Origin: a virus
Reading direction: 5' to 3' (one strand)
Virus record (IMG/VR): IMGVR_UViG_3300030105_000710
Coordinates: 1-25,385 of that record
DNA: 25,385 nucleotides
Shown here: piece by piece, positions 4,806 through 21,397 of the stretch
Numbering within the stretch: the first letter of the stretch is position 1
How the letters are laid out: each line of letters starts with the position of its first letter
Translations under genes and position numbers: made by a program
The notes under the pieces: generated by a model
The model's input: only the letters and a program-made list of their open reading frames with translations
The model's database searches: none
Told to the model about the DNA's origin: nothing

Positions 4806-6206
4806 AGTATCCCAAGGCGGTGTTGCTCTGCGTTGTTCCGGCGTGTAATCCATGCGGGTTTGTACGTTACGGGCTTCGGCCTCCCCTGCTAGGCGTTGAT
4901 AGAGTTCAAAGTCTGTGCGCTGGTCATGCGCTTTTCTGAGCTTGTCTATATCTCGCATCTTAGTAGCGGCAGGTTGCAATTTCTCCATTTTACGACCCGC
5001 CTTTAGCGCAGCAGCCTTTGCTTGCTTCCTGTCACCCATAACTGAATTGAATTTATTTATTTGGCTGCTAGTTAAAGACCCGTTCATTTCTTCAAGGTGT
5101 TTATTCCTTAAAAACGCGGCAGCACCTCTAACCCACTCATCTCTTGCGGGGCCTGCCTTTTTAGGCTGTATTCCAATCGTGTCTCTGATTTCTGTAGACC
5201 ATCTATACCAATCCATCGTATTAGTGACCATCGAAGGCTTCGGGTTTGCTGCCTTAGAAAGTTCGTCTAATTTAGTGTAATAATCAGCCTGCATAAACGC
5301 GGCTCTATCTTCTTTGTGGCTGTCGTATTCCTTCTTGTCCCGGTAATGCACCCCAGCGCGACGGTGATAATCAAGGGTAACGCTGTCCCGCGCTGTCTCA
5401 GGATTGCCCCCGCGAGAAAAGTTTTCAGTTTCTTGCGTGGCGTGTTGGAACTCATGGTTTGCCACACTCCTACGCTCTGCATTATCACTGCCCTTCGCTA
5501 CGACAGTCTTGAATGATGGGTCATACTCCCCGCCTATTGGCCCCCTCGATATGCTTTGCTGGGTTGCATCCCACATATCAGGGTATGCCCCCTGCAACTC
5601 ATCATGCTGCAACCGCTGATACCCCTTCGGCGCGCCCGCAGGAGTTTCAAGGAATGACGCACTATCATCAATCTCAAACTTCCATTGCCCATCAACGTCT
5701 TTATACCAACCTGTCTCTTTCCAGACTTGGTTTCTGTCTGCACCCTTCGCCGTCAGGTCTTGGGCTTGCTGTAGGGCTGCTTGATCCGCTGTCTTGGCAG
5801 ACCTGCCGCCAAACATACGCAAGGCACCTTTAGGCACCTCTGAGAAGGCACCTAACCCAGCCATTTCCGCAACAAGCTCTAGGTTAACCTTATTATACTG
5901 GTCAGTCGCTTCCGGTGGTGCCGTGCCACTCATAACCGTTGGGCCAAGAGACAGGCTTGTGTCAATGGCTTTCTTATAACTATCGCCAACCGCCTTCAGA
6001 CCGCTTTCCAGCTTTCCAGGCACATCGGCGTGAAGAAGCTGCAATAGTGAACCTATAGGGCTGTCAACCATTGCTTGCATGGCACTAGTCTTTATTTCAG
6101 GTTTAGCCGTTGAACTGCCCCTTGGCCCCATACCAGACAAGCTCTGTCTATACGGAGTTGGCGTGGCAGCTTTTTCCATGCCTAATATCTGCTCTATAAA
6201 GCCCAC
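4770..6206 (-). CDS. LPD23-type polyvalent domain protein with zincin-like HExxH motif
   Basis: 478 residues. Residues about 155-460 match my memory of the 'large polyvalent protein-associated domain 23' pattern. It has an N-R-Q-V-W-K-E-T-G-W opening (159-168), an 'FEIDDS' strand (177-182), the metal-site-like HEFQH at 251-255 (HExxH form), and the closing block LAGEAEARNVQTRMDYTPEQ followed by R-R-A-T-P-P-W-D-T-L-D. The domain is usually seen inside giant polyvalent phage or conjugation proteins; here it is a separate gene. A metallopeptidase activity is inferred from HExxH plus the later Glu-rich segment and is unproven. Translation seems to start at GTG (6206) directly after the TAA of the adaptor gene, with a GGAGGCGA Shine-Dalgarno about 8 nt upstream; the alternative is ATG at 6179. 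Confidence 0.75.
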   Translation of the reverse strand: MGFIEQILGMEKAATPTPYRQSLSGMGPRGSSTAKPEIKTSAMQAMVDSPIGSLLQLLHADVPGKLESGLKAVGDSYKKAIDTSLSLGPTVMSGTAPPEATDQYNKVNLELVAEMAGLGAFSEVPKGALRMFGGRSAKTADQAALQQAQDLTAKGADRNQVWKETGWYKDVDGQWKFEIDDSASFLETPAGAPKGYQRLQHDELQGAYPDMWDATQQSISRGPIGGEYDPSFKTVVAKGSDNAERRSVANHEFQHATQETENFSRGGNPETARDSVTLDYHRRAGVHYRDKKEYDSHKEDRAAFMQADYYTKLDELSKAANPKPSMVTNTMDWYRWSTEIRDTIGIQPKKAGPARDEWVRGAAAFLRNKHLEEMNGSLTSSQINKFNSVMGDRKQAKAAALKAGRKMEKLQPAATKMRDIDKLRKAHDQRTDFELYQRLAGEAEARNVQTRMDYTPEQRRATPPWDTLDVPENELIVR

Positions 6207-6935
6207 TTAAAAATCGCCTCCATAAGATGCCCGACTAGCTTTAGGCGTTCCGTCAAAGTGCCGCGAGTTCTGCCCAAAGATGTCGGCAACAATAGCCACA
6301 TTTGCTGAAGCTGTTTCATTTCCAACTAAAATATCAAAGTAATCTAGAAAACTCCTGTACGCCGATTGAAATGGCTGACCCTCGGCTGCAAGCCATTCAT
6401 AAACTGCGTATCTGATAATTAGTTCTTCATCTATTAATGGTTTATCAGTATCTATTGTAAATGCTGCTTTCTCGCTACCACCTGCTGCGACTTCGCACCA
6501 ATTCTTTTTAATATATTCAAATGCTACGGTCACACCGCTAGTTATTGCGGGTGCAGTTAACACAGCCCCGCCTCTAAATATAAATTTTTTGTTTTGACTA
6601 GAAAACGTTTGAATTTTTAATCCGTTCCACTCAACTGGGCTGATCGGCCCAGAAATAAGATTGTTGCTACTTCTATCCCACATTGTCTCAGGGACAAATC
6701 GACCAAAGTTTGACGGCATAGCACTAGCTGCAATTAAAGTTTCAACGCCTGGAGCCGTAACCAACTTTTCTACTCGTAGAATATTCCAAGGATATGACAA
6801 AGTAAGTTTCTGACCACACTTGTTAATGACTCTCAGCATATTCTCAGCGTCAGGATTAGCATTGCCAGCTATAGTTGTAGGCTTCGGGCCTTTTGTTTCG
6901 TCTGAAACTGCATTTGCGATAGTTAATAAAGTCAT
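6207..6935 (-). CDS. Head-tail adaptor / connector protein
   Basis: 242 residues. The sequence follows the common phage adaptor pattern: an N-terminal helical pair with 'RVINKCGQKLTLSYPWNILR' (about 35-55), then F-G-R-F-V-P-E-T-M-W-D-R (about 77-88), S-P-V-E-W-N-G-L-K, a beta hairpin with 'FIFRGGAVLTAPAITSG', then FEYIKKNWC and a late D-E-E-L-I-I-R-Y helix. Proteins with this pattern join the portal to the tail and are found after the coat gene in podo- and siphovirus modules; P22 gp4 has the equivalent position. An AGGAA Shine-Dalgarno precedes the ATG. The stop TAA abuts the GTG of the next gene, so the two are probably translated together. Confidence 0.8.
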   Translation of the reverse strand: MTLLTIANAVSDETKGPKPTTIAGNANPDAENMLRVINKCGQKLTLSYPWNILRVEKLVTAPGVETLIAASAMPSNFGRFVPETMWDRSSNNLISGPISPVEWNGLKIQTFSSQNKKFIFRGGAVLTAPAITSGVTVAFEYIKKNWCEVAAGGSEKAAFTIDTDKPLIDEELIIRYAVYEWLAAEGQPFQSAYRSFLDYFDILVGNETASANVAIVADIFGQNSRHFDGTPKASRASYGGDF

Positions 6936-9011: not shown

Positions 9012-10019
9012 TTACAAACCAAGATGCTTGCTAAGTTCTGACATGTTCATCTTTTCTGCTTTACGAGTCAGGGTTGCTTTTCCAGTATTCTTAATTCCTT
9101 TTACTGGCTTGGTTTGCGCTAGATGTTTGGTTGGCCGCTTTTTAGTGGCCTGAGTCTGCCGATCATATAACATCGCTTTGTAAGCATACTCAGTGATTAC
9201 CGGGTTCAACGCCCAAGCGTCTAGTTCTCTCTGAGAAATATTTGGATGTTGCTGCCTAACGTGGTTTAGAAGTTCCGGTGCTTTTTCAGTTGAAAAATTC
9301 GGTATTCTTTTATTAAGCATCTCCACACCCTCCGCAGCTATAGTTGCTAATCGCTCTTTCTGTTGAGCGTCGGCAGCTTCTTCTTGCTGTTGGACAAGTG
9401 ACAAAGTTTGTTGAAATTGAGCTTCTTTTGAAGCGATTGCATCTGAAATCTGTCTGGCACGGTCAGGGTTGACTTGCCATTCCTGATTCAAATCAACTGC
9501 TTTAAGTTGCTCTAAGTCCGATCTTTCTTGCAGTCCTCGTGTATAAGTTTCAAGAGCTTCACCGTTCAATTCCGCTATTTTTGCGACGGTTTTTTCTTGA
9601 GTTTGAAGCGTCTTAGCTCGCTCCGCTGTTTCCTGATGCGATTTTGTAGCTGATGACCATACACCTTTCGAGAACTCGTCTATCTTAGTGGCTAGTTCTG
9701 GCGGTATTGCATCAACTGCAAACTCCAGCTTGTTGCCACCAAAATCAAAAGAGCGCATTTCTGGCTCATTAGTTTCATCAGTTTCTTCACCAGTTTCTTC
9801 ACCGCCTTCTTCGACAGCTTCTTCATTGCTTTCGTCGCTTTCTTCCGCTTCGGCTGCAATTTCTTCATGCTCGACTTCAGAATCAGCATTGCTATCTAAA
9901 GAAACTATTTCTGAGCTATCAGACTGAATATCTTCTAATGCAGTGATTAATGTTTCTTCTTGCTCTGCTGGTGCAGCTACGTTTTCTTGGACGTCGGCTG
10001 CGGGTTGTGCGTCAGACAT
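9012..10019 (-). CDS. Scaffolding protein
   Basis: 335 residues. Residues 1-95 are extremely acidic (runs such as EEGGEETGEETDETNEPE). A central region carries 'GGNKLEFAVDAIPPELATKI' then D-E-F-S-K-G-V-W-S-S, followed by a long Gln/Glu/Ala-rich coiled-coil region (about 115-260). The C-terminus is basic helix with K-A-E-K-M-N-M-S-E-L-S-K-H-L-G-L. Acidic body, coiled coil and small basic C-terminal helix are the organisation of P22-type scaffolds, whose C-terminal helix-turn-helix binds coat. The gene directly precedes the coat gene (36-nt gap) and has a strong AAAAGGAG Shine-Dalgarno 8 nt before ATG. Synthesis of the procapsid is the expected role. Confidence 0.8.
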   Translation of the reverse strand: MSDAQPAADVQENVAAPAEQEETLITALEDIQSDSSEIVSLDSNADSEVEHEEIAAEAEESDESNEEAVEEGGEETGEETDETNEPEMRSFDFGGNKLEFAVDAIPPELATKIDEFSKGVWSSATKSHQETAERAKTLQTQEKTVAKIAELNGEALETYTRGLQERSDLEQLKAVDLNQEWQVNPDRARQISDAIASKEAQFQQTLSLVQQQEEAADAQQKERLATIAAEGVEMLNKRIPNFSTEKAPELLNHVRQQHPNISQRELDAWALNPVITEYAYKAMLYDRQTQATKKRPTKHLAQTKPVKGIKNTGKATLTRKAEKMNMSELSKHLGL

Positions 10020-15774: not shown

Positions 15775-16152
15775 TTATTTACCCTCTAATTTTTTTAATT
15801 TGTTACTTTGACTTTTAATTTCATTATTTTCCAATCTCTTTTTTGGTCGGTCATCAATCAAGCAATTATTATCTTGTGCGTCTAGAAGTATGTTGCAACA
15901 AGCGATAACATTTCCCAAATGCGACGCTCCTGTTTCTGGATCGTTGTCTGCAACTTCTTTCCATTCTTGTATGTGTCTTAGCATTGCATTGATATAAACC
16001 ATTGCAGACACATCTTTTTCTCGCCAATTCCAAGCTCCGTATTTTTCTGCCCCGATTTGGTGAGCGGCGGCGGCTGCTTCTAACGCAATTTTTGGAATTA
16101 AACCTAACGACGGTTTTTGTTTTCCAAATTTAGTCTTGGGGTTTTCATCCAT
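15775..16152 (-). CDS. dATP/dGTP diphosphohydrolase N-terminal-like protein (DUF5664, MazG-related)
   Basis: 125 residues. It shows 'KPSLGLIPKIALEAAAAAHQ' then I-G-A-E-K-Y-G-A-W-N-W-R-E, followed by 'AMLRHIQEWKEVADNDPETG' and A-S-H-L-G-N-V-I-A-C-C-N-I-L-L-D. These are the landmarks of the dATP/dGTP diphosphohydrolase N-terminal family, all-helical nucleotide pyrophosphohydrolases related to MazG. Such enzymes alter dNTP pools during infection; relatives (MazZ) act in phages that replace adenine with diaminopurine, but the other Z-pathway genes are not in this window. The C-terminus is Lys/Asn-rich and variable. It is 2 nt downstream of the next replication gene. Confidence 0.75.
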   Translation of the reverse strand: MDENPKTKFGKQKPSLGLIPKIALEAAAAAHQIGAEKYGAWNWREKDVSAMVYINAMLRHIQEWKEVADNDPETGASHLGNVIACCNILLDAQDNNCLIDDRPKKRLENNEIKSQSNKLKKLEGK

Positions 16153-16154
16153 AA

Positions 16155-16730
16155 TTAGCTCATTGACCGGATTGAACTTGATATTGTTTTATCAAAATCT
16201 GATTTTTGCTGCTCTGTTAAATCTGCGTATCTCACCGCCGTATCTTTTTCCTTGCCACGCTTCATATGCTCTTCAAGGTGATCAGTTGCTATTCTCAAAG
16301 CTGCCTTTCTTTCGTTCAACATATTGCTGCAAACGTCAACAACTTCTGATCGGCTTGGCAACCACTTACATGAGCGGGTTAATTCGTCTACAGCGTAAAA
16401 CCCAATGTCCGGCGGCGTTTCATTAAAAATTGAAGTCACCGCCCGCACGAATATATTTTCATCTGCCATTTTGCGTTCTGGATATGATCCTATCAAAACC
16501 TCTGCTTGCCGCGCCGCCGTTTCTAAATCTGCCGGGATTAAAAGCCCCTCTAATTCGCTAACTATTTTTCTGCAATCAGACACGGATATTAACCGCGTCC
16601 ATTCGTCTACCCTTGTTCCAGCAACAGGTGTCAGCACAGATCTGTTTTGATATGCATTGGGTGCCTTTGTGAATTGCTTGGCAACCATGCCAGCCGCAGC
16701 TTTTTGCAATGCTAGTTTTGTTTCACTCAT
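16155..16730 (-). CDS. Probable helicase-loader-like replication protein
   Basis: 191 residues, helical. The central block 'AEVLIGSYPERKMADENIFV' then R-A-V-T-S-I-F-N-E-T-P-P-D-I-G-F-Y-A-V and 'SCKWLPSRSEVVDVC' resembles the small phage protein found after DUF1376 or O-like initiators, with 'LLxxYP ... PExxxxAV ... LxxYPPxV ... KWxPSxxEI'. In such places it usually supplies helicase-loader or replisome-organising function, which is inference by position and pattern. The start ATG overlaps the end of the DUF1376 gene by 4 nt (ATGA). Confidence 0.6.
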   Translation of the reverse strand: MSETKLALQKAAAGMVAKQFTKAPNAYQNRSVLTPVAGTRVDEWTRLISVSDCRKIVSELEGLLIPADLETAARQAEVLIGSYPERKMADENIFVRAVTSIFNETPPDIGFYAVDELTRSCKWLPSRSEVVDVCSNMLNERKAALRIATDHLEEHMKRGKEKDTAVRYADLTEQQKSDFDKTISSSIRSMS

Positions 16731-17599
16731 TTCAAAAACTCCAGATTATTTATTTGTTCTATCTCCCTAGCCTCTGATCTCAAATCGGCAAAGGCATCTT
16801 GCATTTTACTTGCCGAACTCTTTTCTGCTGGCTGCACGTGAGCAATATCATCATTCCAACATTCTCCATTTAACCACGTTGCTGGATGTTTGCAAAATTT
16901 CATGTCTGTCGTGACCTCCGCATACTTGATGGCAGAGTCTACCAATATCGTTGCAGCATCCATATCATCCAATTCGTTAAATGTTTTTAGTGCTTTCATG
17001 TAAGCATCTTCTGCTTTTTTCTTGCCGACCTTCCTTGGATATTCTGACCAGAAAGCATCGAATTTGAGCAATATATCTTCTTCTTTGTCCTGTCCTGTCC
17101 TGTCCTCTCCTGTGGACGCGTTACTAACGCGTGACGAACGCGTTACGCGCTTGTTTGTTTTCAACGCCTTACGGAACTTTTTCGAGCGCACTTTTCCGTC
17201 ACGTCTTTTAGTGTAACTTTTTTCTATTTCTAAATCACACCGTTTATGGCGTAACGTGTTAGTAACGCGTTTGAACATTGCAGTGACATTTTCAGACACG
17301 TTCAGCCAGTCCTCAAGCGTGATACCAAGGATACTTGCCAGAGCCTTATCGTGGCTTGGCAGAGGTCGCTCTGTGTTCATGTAGTGGTCTATAAGAAGGT
17401 TGTATGCGCCATGCTCAGCGAGTGTTAAATGGTAGGTGTCTTCACGGTAGTCTATTGGGTTTTTGGGATACCAGTCCATAGCATCAGTCCTTTCATACCA
17501 GTCCTTAAAAGTGGTGCGCGGCGGGCTGGACTGATGAAGGGCCACGTTGGGGATCAATCCGACGTTTTTTTCACCGCGCATTATATTAAAACTTTTCAT
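16727..17599 (-). CDS. DUF1376 (YdaU-type) replication protein
   Basis: 290 residues. The N-terminal domain is 'AMDWYPKNPIDYREDTYHLT' then L-A-E-H-G-A-Y-N-L-L-I-D-H-Y and 'ERPLPSHDKALASILGITLE' (about 40-100), the hallmark of DUF1376. Basic region 130-150 follows, then a low-complexity hinge encoded by the 17086-17148 tandem repeats. A second domain contains 'FDAFWSEYPRKVGKKKAEDA', a phage replication C-terminal pattern, and 'PATWLNGECWND'. Proteins of this architecture act as phage replication initiators. The gene carries two clusters of 11-bp repeats in its own coding sequence, as the lambda O gene carries the lambda origin. Neighbours are a helicase-loader-like gene and nucleotide-metabolism gene. 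Confidence 0.85.
   Translation of the reverse strand: MKSFNIMRGEKNVGLIPNVALHQSSPPRTTFKDWYERTDAMDWYPKNPIDYREDTYHLTLAEHGAYNLLIDHYMNTERPLPSHDKALASILGITLEDWLNVSENVTAMFKRVTNTLRHKRCDLEIEKSYTKRRDGKVRSKKFRKALKTNKRVTRSSRVSNASTGEDRTGQDKEEDILLKFDAFWSEYPRKVGKKKAEDAYMKALKTFNELDDMDAATILVDSAIKYAEVTTDMKFCKHPATWLNGECWNDDIAHVQPAEKSSASKMQDAFADLRSEAREIEQINNLEFLK
17086..17148. repeat. Tandem 5-bp and 11-bp direct repeats in the DUF1376 gene (candidate origin iterons)
   Basis: Four TGTCC units plus TCTCC and TGTGG fill 17086-17115. They pass directly into three 11-bp units starting ACGCGT at 17116, 17127 and 17138 (ACGCGTTACTA, ACGCGTGACGA, ACGCGTTACGC). Neither 5 nor 11 is a multiple of 3, so the repeats are read in different frames and are not a protein repeat. 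This points to DNA-level selection, such as initiator-binding iterons, or to slippage for the 5-bp part. Confidence 0.6.
17254..17275. repeat. Second pair of 11-bp repeats (ACGTGTTAGTA / ACGCGTTTGAA)
   Basis: Two more units of the ACGCGT-type repeat at 11-bp spacing (17254 and 17265), 116 bp from the last unit of the first cluster and inside the same replication gene. They support the idea of a two-cluster iteron site. Confidence 0.45.
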
Positions 17600-17601
17600 G
17601 G

Positions 17602-18093
17602 TTAAAAGTCAATCGCAGTGATTGGGTGTGACGACGCAATTACTGTATCAGGGCATTTACGGACATCAACAGCCACAAAGTAGGTGCCGTCACCGTTAGG
17701 GGTTTTCTTTAAGCCCAAGCTGTCCTTATCTCGTATTAGTATGGCGCGAAACTTATTTAAGTCTACCAACAACCACCTACAAATTTTGTCTTCCTCAATA
17801 TGACCATAAAATAGCCAATCGCCCCAACCATCCACAATCTTTGAAAGTTCTGTCGTTACCCCCGTATCCCGTTGTGTGCGGATCGTAAAGTCCCAAGGGT
17901 ATATTTCAGCATATCCTGGGCGGCGTAACCTGCAAGCGATAGTGACATTTTTCCCCATAACTACAACAAAGTCGGCGGCTTCTTTTGTATCAACCTCGAA
18001 AGAAGAAACATTTAAAAGGTGAGGGCCAATAATTTCTTTTGCCGCGTCTATAAATTTATCTGACCAGATACGGTCTGTTTTATAATCTGGCAT
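17602..18093 (-). CDS. Conserved phage protein of unknown function
   Basis: 163 residues from ATG 18093, which overlaps the stop of the methyltransferase gene as TGATG; a TTG three bases earlier is less likely. The sequence has 'FEVDTKEAADFVVVMGKNVT' then I-A-C-R-L-R-R-P-G-Y, 'WDFTIRTQRDTGVTTELSKI' then V-D-G-W-G-D-W-L-F-Y-G-H, and 'RWLLVDLNKFRAIL'. I recall this pattern from many phage replication regions, where it is annotated only as hypothetical. The strand-turn with conserved Asp, Arg-rich strand and G-W-G-D-W-L-F-Y could be a nuclease-like fold, but no catalytic set is clear. It sits between the adenine methyltransferase and the DUF1376 gene. Confidence 0.75.
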   Translation of the reverse strand: MPDYKTDRIWSDKFIDAAKEIIGPHLLNVSSFEVDTKEAADFVVVMGKNVTIACRLRRPGYAEIYPWDFTIRTQRDTGVTTELSKIVDGWGDWLFYGHIEEDKICRWLLVDLNKFRAILIRDKDSLGLKKTPNGDGTYFVAVDVRKCPDTVIASSHPITAIDF

Positions 18094-19100
18094 CAATCAT
18101 CATCCTCAAACCTATTAACTTCATTTCCAAAGCCATCAAAGCCGGGGCGGGCCTCACGGGAAAACATCTCTATCCGTGGTTCGTCACAAACCCGACTTAC
18201 AACGTCATAAAAATCATCCGGCTTTCGGCTATGCTCTCGGCGGGGTGCGTCAAAGCAACAAAATAATTGCTTAGTATCTCTGAATTTAGGCGTCCCCTTC
18301 CGGGCATAAAGCACAAACTCACAATTAAATTGCGGCAAGCCTACTGGTTGATACCCACCTGCCTTATGCCAAACAAAGGTGCAAACATATTTAAACCCCC
18401 ATGAATCTAACAAATGAAACGCCATTGGAAGAAATTTGTGTGTTGCCCAAAGAAACATGTGGCAATCATCAGCGGCAGGAATATCAATAGCAGAAAGCTC
18501 ATCCTCATTCATTGTTGGATAATCAAGTTCTGCCTGATTAGGCCGTACATCCCTAGCTATTTTCTTCATCGGCCACGGTGGGTCTATAACAATGCAATGA
18601 TATTTGCGCTCAATCACGGGAAGGGTTTCATTTTCCGCTTTAAGAGCCTCATTTTCTTGTTGTCGCTTTTCTTTTTCGTTGTCCTGAATAACTTTGGTCG
18701 TTGTTATGGCTTTTTTATCAGTGCTTTTTTCATCAATAACAGCGTCAAGGGCTTCTTCAGGAATAATCCCCGCTATTTGCTGCCATTGACTGGACTCCTT
18801 GCGGGTAATTCCCAATTCATCTAGGGTTGGTGTATCATCAATAACCTGTTCTTTTTTGGTACGGGTTTTTTCCGGCCTTCCTCCTTCCGCTCTTTCTGTT
18901 TCTTCAAGCATTTGACCTATGCGGTGTTCGGCCCTGAATTTAATTTTGCCCGCCCAAATAGCCATGTCATTATCATTTGCCTGACGCGCATAGGCCCGCA
19001 TAGCCTCTGCCTTATCCCGAATATCTTTTACCTCATCAACAGAGTGTGCCGCCTGGAGTGCCTGCCGCGCTGCCTCGTATTTTACTAGATCATGTGACAT
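18093..19100 (-). CDS. MT-A70 family DNA N6-adenine methyltransferase with N-terminal helical domain
   Basis: 335 residues. The C-terminal half is an MT-A70 domain: catalytic DPPW at 173-176 ('CIVIDPPWPMKK'), 'ADDCHMFLWATHKFLPMAFH' and the closing 'REHSRKPDDFYDVV' followed by R-V-C-D-E-P-R-I-E-M-F-S-R, where 'RKPD' and 'RIEMFSR' are typical. It would methylate adenine N6 in DNA. The N-terminal 140 residues ('LVKYEAARQALQAAHSVDEV', 'RAEHRIGQMLEETERAEGGR', 'TLDELGITRKESSQWQQIAG') form a helical DNA-binding-like domain often found beside or fused to phage MT-A70 enzymes. A charged hinge (140-162) links the parts. Protection from host restriction is the likely use. The stop overlaps the next gene by TGATG. 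Confidence 0.9.
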   Translation of the reverse strand: MSHDLVKYEAARQALQAAHSVDEVKDIRDKAEAMRAYARQANDNDMAIWAGKIKFRAEHRIGQMLEETERAEGGRPEKTRTKKEQVIDDTPTLDELGITRKESSQWQQIAGIIPEEALDAVIDEKSTDKKAITTTKVIQDNEKEKRQQENEALKAENETLPVIERKYHCIVIDPPWPMKKIARDVRPNQAELDYPTMNEDELSAIDIPAADDCHMFLWATHKFLPMAFHLLDSWGFKYVCTFVWHKAGGYQPVGLPQFNCEFVLYARKGTPKFRDTKQLFCCFDAPRREHSRKPDDFYDVVSRVCDEPRIEMFSREARPGFDGFGNEVNRFEDDD

Positions 19101-20832: not shown

Positions 20833-21397
20833 AAACATCGACGAGGCTTTCGTTGCCGCACAGAAGCTAATCGGCGGTGCGCGGAAGACTGCTACCAACC
20901 CGCACTTCAAATCTAAGTACGCAAACCTTGAAGAAGTCCTGAAGGCTTGCTCTGACATCCTGAATGACCATGACATCCATATCACTCAGCCTACCATGCA
21001 GGAAGACAACAAATTCTTTGTCCGTACCATCCTGACGCACACTTCTGGCGAGACGATGGAAGACTATGGCGTTCCGATCCTTGGCTGGGAAGACGCAAAG
21101 AATGCAGCACAGGTTTTTATTGCCGGACAGACTTATGCGAGACGAGGCGGATTGTCTTCATTAGTAGGAATTGCTCCTGCCGATGACGATGGCGAGAGCC
21201 TAACCCAAGCCGCACCTCCGAAGTCCGATAAGATCAGCGCACAACAAGCCGTGCAGCTTAATGACCTAGCCGCCGAGGTCGGTGCCGATAAGGGTAAATT
21301 CTGCGCTTATCTTGGGGTTAAATCTTTTGAGGAAATCAACGCACAACAATTTAGCACTGCAAAGGCTGCGCTTGAAAAAAAACGGGCAACAGAATAA
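20810..21397 (+). CDS. erf: ERF-family single-strand annealing protein
   Basis: 195 residues from ATG 20810, chosen because AAGGGAG (20797-20803) lies 6 nt upstream; 20783 has no such site. Landmarks of the ERF superfamily: 'KTATNPHFKSKYANLEEVLK', then 'ILNDHDIHITQPTMQEDNKF', 'TILTHTSGETMEDYGVPI' and 'AAQVFIAGQTYARRGGLSSL' followed by V-G-I-A-P-A-D-D-D-G. A C-terminal helical domain ends K-A-A-L-E-K-K-R. It anneals complementary ssDNA, working with the YqaJ exonuclease encoded next; the stop overlaps that start as TAATG. Confidence 0.93.
   Translation: MTTPSKNKNIDEAFVAAQKLIGGARKTATNPHFKSKYANLEEVLKACSDILNDHDIHITQPTMQEDNKFFVRTILTHTSGETMEDYGVPILGWEDAKNAAQVFIAGQTYARRGGLSSLVGIAPADDDGESLTQAAPPKSDKISAQQAVQLNDLAAEVGADKGKFCAYLGVKSFEEINAQQFSTAKAALEKKRATE

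Follow-up and report, generated by a model that had tools for sequence, protein, structure and literature searches.

Helically phased repeats in the linker codons of a phage DUF1376 initiator gene as a probable replication origin

Introduction

Short tandem repeats with periods of 11 and 5 bp lie inside a phage gene predicted to encode a replication initiator. The question raised by this locus is what such repeats do in coding DNA, and whether they form the origin on which the initiator acts. We analysed the whole stretch of 25,385 bp that carries them, referred to here as the window. Its gene content is lambda-like/P22-like, with a P22-type portal, terminase, ERF annealing protein, exonuclease and NinB. 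DUF1376, the domain found in the initiator, is still named as a domain of unknown function, yet phages and prophages commonly carry genes for it.

Results

The repeats are located in a 290-aa gene at 16727-17599 on the minus strand. Its product contains a DUF1376 domain (residues 43-126), a low-confidence linker and a C-terminal domain with an 'FW..YPRK' motif. The protein matched Pfam DUF1376 (PF07120) with E=1.2e-18 and 67.7 bits, against a curated cut-off of 30.1, and matched the PHROGs for primosomal protein (1.5e-31) and replication initiation protein (2.3e-18). By homology, the product is predicted to be a replication initiator. In an AF2 model, the N-terminal part had a helix-helix-helix-strand-strand, winged-helix-like arrangement, the linker had a pLDDT below 50 and coincided with the repeats, and the C-terminal part was helical. 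A fold search with this model returned mostly winged-helix regulators with weak scores (best E 0.076), and profile searches against the PDB gave no matches. The conserved F.AFWSEYPRK motif, at the start of the C-domain, is encoded around 17048-17065 on the minus strand, with the FW codons from 17053.

The next gene encodes 191 aa (16155-16730, minus strand), overlaps the stop codon of the initiator gene, and also adjoins the initiator in the relatives L002-L004. Its product gave no confident family, PDB match or structure model and was not recognisable as a helicase loader; it is a possible partner of the initiator, for example in loading a helicase. A short protein encoded at 15775-16152 matched the N-terminal domain of dATP/dGTP diphosphohydrolase (PF18909, E=2.9e-26) and may have a bearing on nucleotide pools or modified bases. 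An MT-A70-type adenine methyltransferase is encoded at 18093-19100, two genes upstream of the initiator.

On the coding strand of the initiator gene, three 11-bp iterons are followed by four to six 5-bp units (AGGAC) and then by a moderately AT-rich stretch. All three elements lie in codons for the linker that joins the DUF1376 domain to the C-domain and is predicted to be disordered. The linker coding strand reads GTAACGCGTTC GTCACGCGTTA GTAACGCGTCC ACAGG AG AGGAC AGGAC AGGAC AGGAC A, then AAGAAGAAGATATATTG, and then the FW..YPRK motif. Iterons 1 to 3, detected by TRF, occupy 17136-17146, 17125-17135 and 17114-17124 on the minus strand; the first is also found in L003 and L004 and the other two also in relatives. 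Their 11-bp consensus on the coding strand, GTMACGCGTYM, is near-palindromic. The 5-bp array at 17086-17113 (minus strand; TRF score 49, 5.6 copies, 91%) has its perfect copies at 17087-17106. Its coding strand is T-free and G+C-rich, and a matching array occurs in other phage initiators. The AT-rich stretch, a candidate unwinding region, lies 3' of the arrays at 17040-17085 (minus strand). A distal iteron pair, AAACGCGTTAC / TAACACGTTAC, is located about 115 bp farther 5', at 17251-17272 on the minus strand.

The initial annotation had described three ACGCGT-type units at 11-bp steps (17116, 17127 and 17138), and this was borne out by TRF, which called a period of 11 at 17116-17147 (2.9 copies), and by the positions of ACGCGT, found at these three sites, at 17265, and only once elsewhere in the 25 kb (1516). 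The TGTCC-type units that it listed comprise four perfect copies together with degenerate ones. Its remark that the protein lacks a repeat holds only approximately, since the 5-bp repeat encodes a 5-residue pattern (EDRTGQD).

Two ACGCG cores at 11-bp phase gave six matches in the window, all at the linker, where 0.21 were expected. These six correspond to three sites, because the iteron is near-palindromic (TAACGCGTTA core) and matches on both strands are one site. None of 100 shuffles contained at least six phased double-core matches. We also re-coded the gene synonymously, leaving the protein unchanged, 5000 times under each of two nulls. No re-coding reached the period-11 score under either null; the period-5 score was reached by none under the codon usage null and by 3 of 5000 under the within-gene permutation null. 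Among 5- and 7-bp repeats, the period-5 array was the strongest in the window. A single stronger repeat of 10-12 bp exists, TTCACCAGCTTC at 9774-9825 (4.3 copies); it has a period of 12 and is therefore in frame, a protein-level repeat unlike the putative origin arrays. No rival array was found in two other regions of the window searched for repeats. These results demonstrate that the linker repeats are non-random and not due to chance.

The initial annotation had named loss of the repeats in near relatives as a refuting outcome; instead, they were conserved in close relatives. L002 was identical to the window over its own length. L003 shared 86% amino-acid identity with the window in the N-part and 68% in the C-part. 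In L004 the C-part was 98.5% identical and the N-domain, at 57%, was a different version. At the DNA level, L004 was 63% identical to the window on one side and matched at 388 of 390 positions on the other, with the switch at the iterons. L002, L003, L004 and L005 all carried the linker trio and the pentamers, and the three 11-bp units and pentamers stayed while the spacer residues varied (SS, DK or YE). The two extra 11-bp units of the initial annotation are present in the window (TRF 17251-17271, 1.9 copies) and in L003, but are missing from L004, where the N-domain is swapped, so the conserved core is the linker trio with the pentamers. A small ORF, HNH endonuclease-like by eye, was seen in L005 (4300-5284) and in L004 upstream of 1827. 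It directly precedes the swapped DUF1376 domain, in place of the first 40 codons of the window version, and may have driven the domain exchange.

For a survey of the family, we gathered initiators from the genomes of viruses and bacteria, using the C-domain alignment as the sole criterion and ignoring repeats. A protein scan of bacterial genomes with a single sequence gave nothing, but the C-domain alignment scan did give matches. The best 80 loci of each scan yielded 119 genes, of which 73 were left after similar N-parts were dropped. Frame-breaking arrays, defined as TRF arrays with a period that is not a multiple of three and dependent on the TRF thresholds, occurred in 35 of the 73 genes within the 250 bp that precede the FW motif, against 3.0 when synonymous codons were permuted. 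Among 545 other genes at these loci, 10 had such arrays and 9.4 were expected. No array at a score of at least 36 was found in 11 of the 73 initiators. The match excess was high at lags of 11 and 22 bp between -150 and -60 bp from the FW motif, and at lags of 5, 6, 7 and 14 bp between -90 and -30. The long-period array was 5' of the short array in 17 of the 18 genes having both. Across the family set, the coding strand of the short arrays was 53% A and 12% T.

In the L010 initiator (ORF 5731-6540), the linker contains ACGTACCGMAA 11-bp units followed by a 5-bp GGTTA array. Units reading GGTAA and GGATA interrupt this array and may keep in-frame stops out of it. Because GGTTA repeats have stops in all frames, a search for perfect arrays of this unit led mostly to non-coding places. 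In L074, L077, L078 and L079, initiator-like N-domain ORFs of about 140 aa have their stop codon within a perfect AGGTTAGGTTAGG array (...EVRLG*); it looks as though the putative origin array splits the initiator, with the N and C parts made as two proteins.

The initial annotation had deduced DNA-level selection from the periods of the repeats. Between the window and L003, 2 of 17 codons differed synonymously; this pair is too short to prove suppression, and we therefore compared 28 independent initiator pairs. Pooled over different clades and drawn from the best 80 loci of each scan, codons for the same residue differed at 19 of 319 positions inside arrays and at 1316 of 4703 outside, or about 6% versus 28% (Mantel-Haenszel odds ratio 0.16). 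The synonymous change was lower inside arrays in 26 of the 28 pairs (sign test p 3e-6). The amino-acid difference was alike, with 22% inside arrays and 21-23% outside. Along the gene, synonymous change was about 30% except between -120 and 0 before the FW motif, where it was 6-13%. Arrays in other genes, treated by the same procedure, showed no drop (37% vs 36%). Suppressed synonymous change with equal amino-acid change is the signature of a cis-acting element in coding DNA. These results demonstrate directly, for the family, that helically phased repeats inside the initiator gene are selected as DNA.

An exact scan of IMG/VR for AGGACAGGACAGGACAGGA returned 52 loci. In 36 of these, the longest ORF over the array was read on the AGGAC strand, and most of these ORFs had (D)RTGQDRTGQ in mid-protein; DUF1376 was present in 13 of the 36. 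Twenty of the AGGAC-array proteins were checked singly, two of them being alternative frames. Fifteen matched replication-initiation, primosomal, DnaD-like or O-like PHROGs, four had no PHROG match, and one matched another DNA-binding protein. In many loci, iterons of unrelated sequence with periods of 9-12 or 21-24 bp lay directly 5' of the array, for example CGTAACGAYGAY, GTGACGCACCACCGTCACGGGGTG, TGATCACGANA and ATCCGGATG. One second element is thus paired with many different first elements. In L061, the iterons just 5' of the array, GTCACGCGTGACGTAACGCGTGAC, are close to the GTMACGCGT units of the window, and the N-domain looks unrelated. The matches in L045, L052 and L015 were simple-repeat DNA outside the initiator context. 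A blastn search of phage GenBank entries with the repeat region and with the pure AGGAC array gave no match, simple repeats being filtered there. Since AGGAC recurs with unrelated N-domains and unrelated iterons, its reader may be a shared partner or common C-terminal machinery rather than the iteron-binding domain.

Discussion

Judging from sequence comparison, the linker repeats are probably a phage replication origin inside its own initiator gene, of the lambda/SPP1/TP901-1 type extended to DUF1376 initiators; we put the probability of this reading at roughly 85%. The best-surviving alternative, although improbable, is that the repeats are an operator. They would bind a regulator, perhaps the initiator itself, and act in transcription control or as a roadblock. 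Near-palindromic, helically phased sites fit a dimeric regulator, and our evidence is that of sequence comparison. However, the sites are more than 300 bp inside the gene, the short array is nearly always on the same side of the iterons, and demonstrated origins occupy a matching position in genes of this kind. An RNA-level element, in which the synonymous constraint stems from a pausing signal or a structure in the initiator mRNA, is less probable still. The inverted repeats could form hairpins, and the repeat RNA folded slightly better than shuffles (z -1.94), but the fold was only weakly above chance (z -1.94 and -1.33), helical phasing is a property of double-stranded DNA, and A-rich, T-poor short arrays offer few pairing partners. 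The least probable explanation is functionless repeats made by slippage as low-complexity DNA in a tolerant linker: tandem repeats are slippage-prone and the linker is predicted to be disordered, but this is already contradicted by the synonymous test, a four- to fivefold reduction with equal amino-acid change that argues strongly against it for the family as a whole, and also by the lack of any synonymous drop in the arrays of other genes, the clustering of periods at 11 and 22 bp, the fixed array order, and the absence of enrichment of frame-breaking arrays in other genes.

For the origin reading, we infer the following mechanism. The winged-helix-like DUF1376 domain would bind the near-palindromic 11-bp iterons, probably as dimers, with the sites on one helix face. 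The complex may then spread onto the neighbouring 5-bp array and hold its T-poor strand, and the AT-rich DNA beyond the array would open. The C-domain, possibly together with the product of the neighbouring gene, would recruit the host helicase. Sites in a disordered linker would leave the DNA free to change without harm to either folded domain, and placement within the gene would keep the origin and initiator together through phage recombination.

The role of the pentamers is the most speculative step. The mean nearest-neighbour step was -1.227 at 17040-17085, -1.347 over the window and -1.535 in the arrays. The candidate unwinding region is mildly unstable but not exceptional in the window, the site is not the least stable DNA there, and the stable pentamer array lies between it and the iterons. 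The pentamer array, G+C-rich and more stable than average, does not fit the classic AT-rich unwinding element, and strand capture may be its function. GC skew, a check proposed in the initial annotation, gave no support, with its minimum at 21045 near the change of gene direction. It is conceivable, though less likely than not, that a large class of phage initiators carries a two-part origin in the linker codons, with one- or two-turn iterons followed by a 5-7-bp A-rich, T-poor strand-capture array as a counterpart of the DnaA-trio. If the origin reading is true, the origins of hundreds of uncultivated phages could be located from sequence through the initiator-gene linker, and the 5-7-bp array would be a concrete, mutable element for studying DNA opening by such initiators. 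Profiles of synonymous suppression are in addition a general means of finding hidden sites in coding DNA.

The initial annotation had compared the locus with lambda, and the comparison held against the annotated lambda iterons. In lambda O, used as a positive control, these are 20-24 bp apart inside the gene, and next on the coding strand comes an array of 7-bp AAAAGAA units. As in the window, the lambda iterons are mid-gene, in codons between two protein halves, with an A-rich coding-strand tract directly 3'. They differ in being 18-19 bp at about two turns, versus 11 bp at one turn in the window, and the second lambda element is AT-rich whereas that of the window is the G+C-rich AGGAC array. 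Lambda O is not known as a DUF1376 protein. The O genes of lambda and Stx phages are an experimental precedent for an origin within an initiator gene (PMC7466680, PMC5043065), and in O of this type the iteron number alters the protein length (PMC7466680). Lambda O and SPP1 gp38 assemble on iterons in their own genes, open the adjacent DNA and bring the helicase (PMC5043065, PMC7466680, PMC6316719). The oriL of SPP1 lies in gene 38, where direct repeats bound by the gene product adjoin an AT-rich unwinding element (PMC6316719). SPP1 resembles the window in having direct repeats within the initiator gene, but the initiator itself is different, and a second origin, oriR, lies far from oriL in SPP1, with no candidate counterpart in the 25-kb window.

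The replisome organizers of TP901-1 (ORF13) and Tuc2009 (ORF16) bind direct-repeat regions in their own genes, and these regions have been shown to be origins (PMC8965321). They have in-gene direct repeats in common with the window, with other initiators and other hosts. The E. coli Rac prophage has an active origin, oriJ (PMC3945230), for which the ydaU linker is a candidate place. Like the window gene, ydaU encodes a DUF1376 protein, and in its linker a 6-bp array (ATAAAG/GATACA) comes after repeats of the GTGTTCAAACA type, but the region after the linker is without the same FW..YPRK motif. In the basal unwinding system of bacterial oriC, DnaA-boxes, which are bound as double-stranded DNA, are followed by strand-asymmetric, short-unit DnaA-trios (PMC10721633). 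The window does not belong to this system, since its protein is DUF1376 and its units are 5 bp, as against an unrelated protein and 3-nt units; the analogy is one of layout only. An in-gene origin has also been proposed for the Francisella phage KIRK (PMC7924643).

In titles and abstracts, we found no paper on an origin that joins DUF1376 with replication; few subscription papers were covered, and an earlier description is possible. The principle of an in-gene origin is already established in lambda, Stx phages, SPP1, TP901-1 and Tuc2009. What is possibly new is that DUF1376 initiators follow it too, with iterons one turn apart and AGGAC as a shared second element, and that this second element belongs to a 5-7-bp, A-rich, T-poor kind of which AGGAC is one version.
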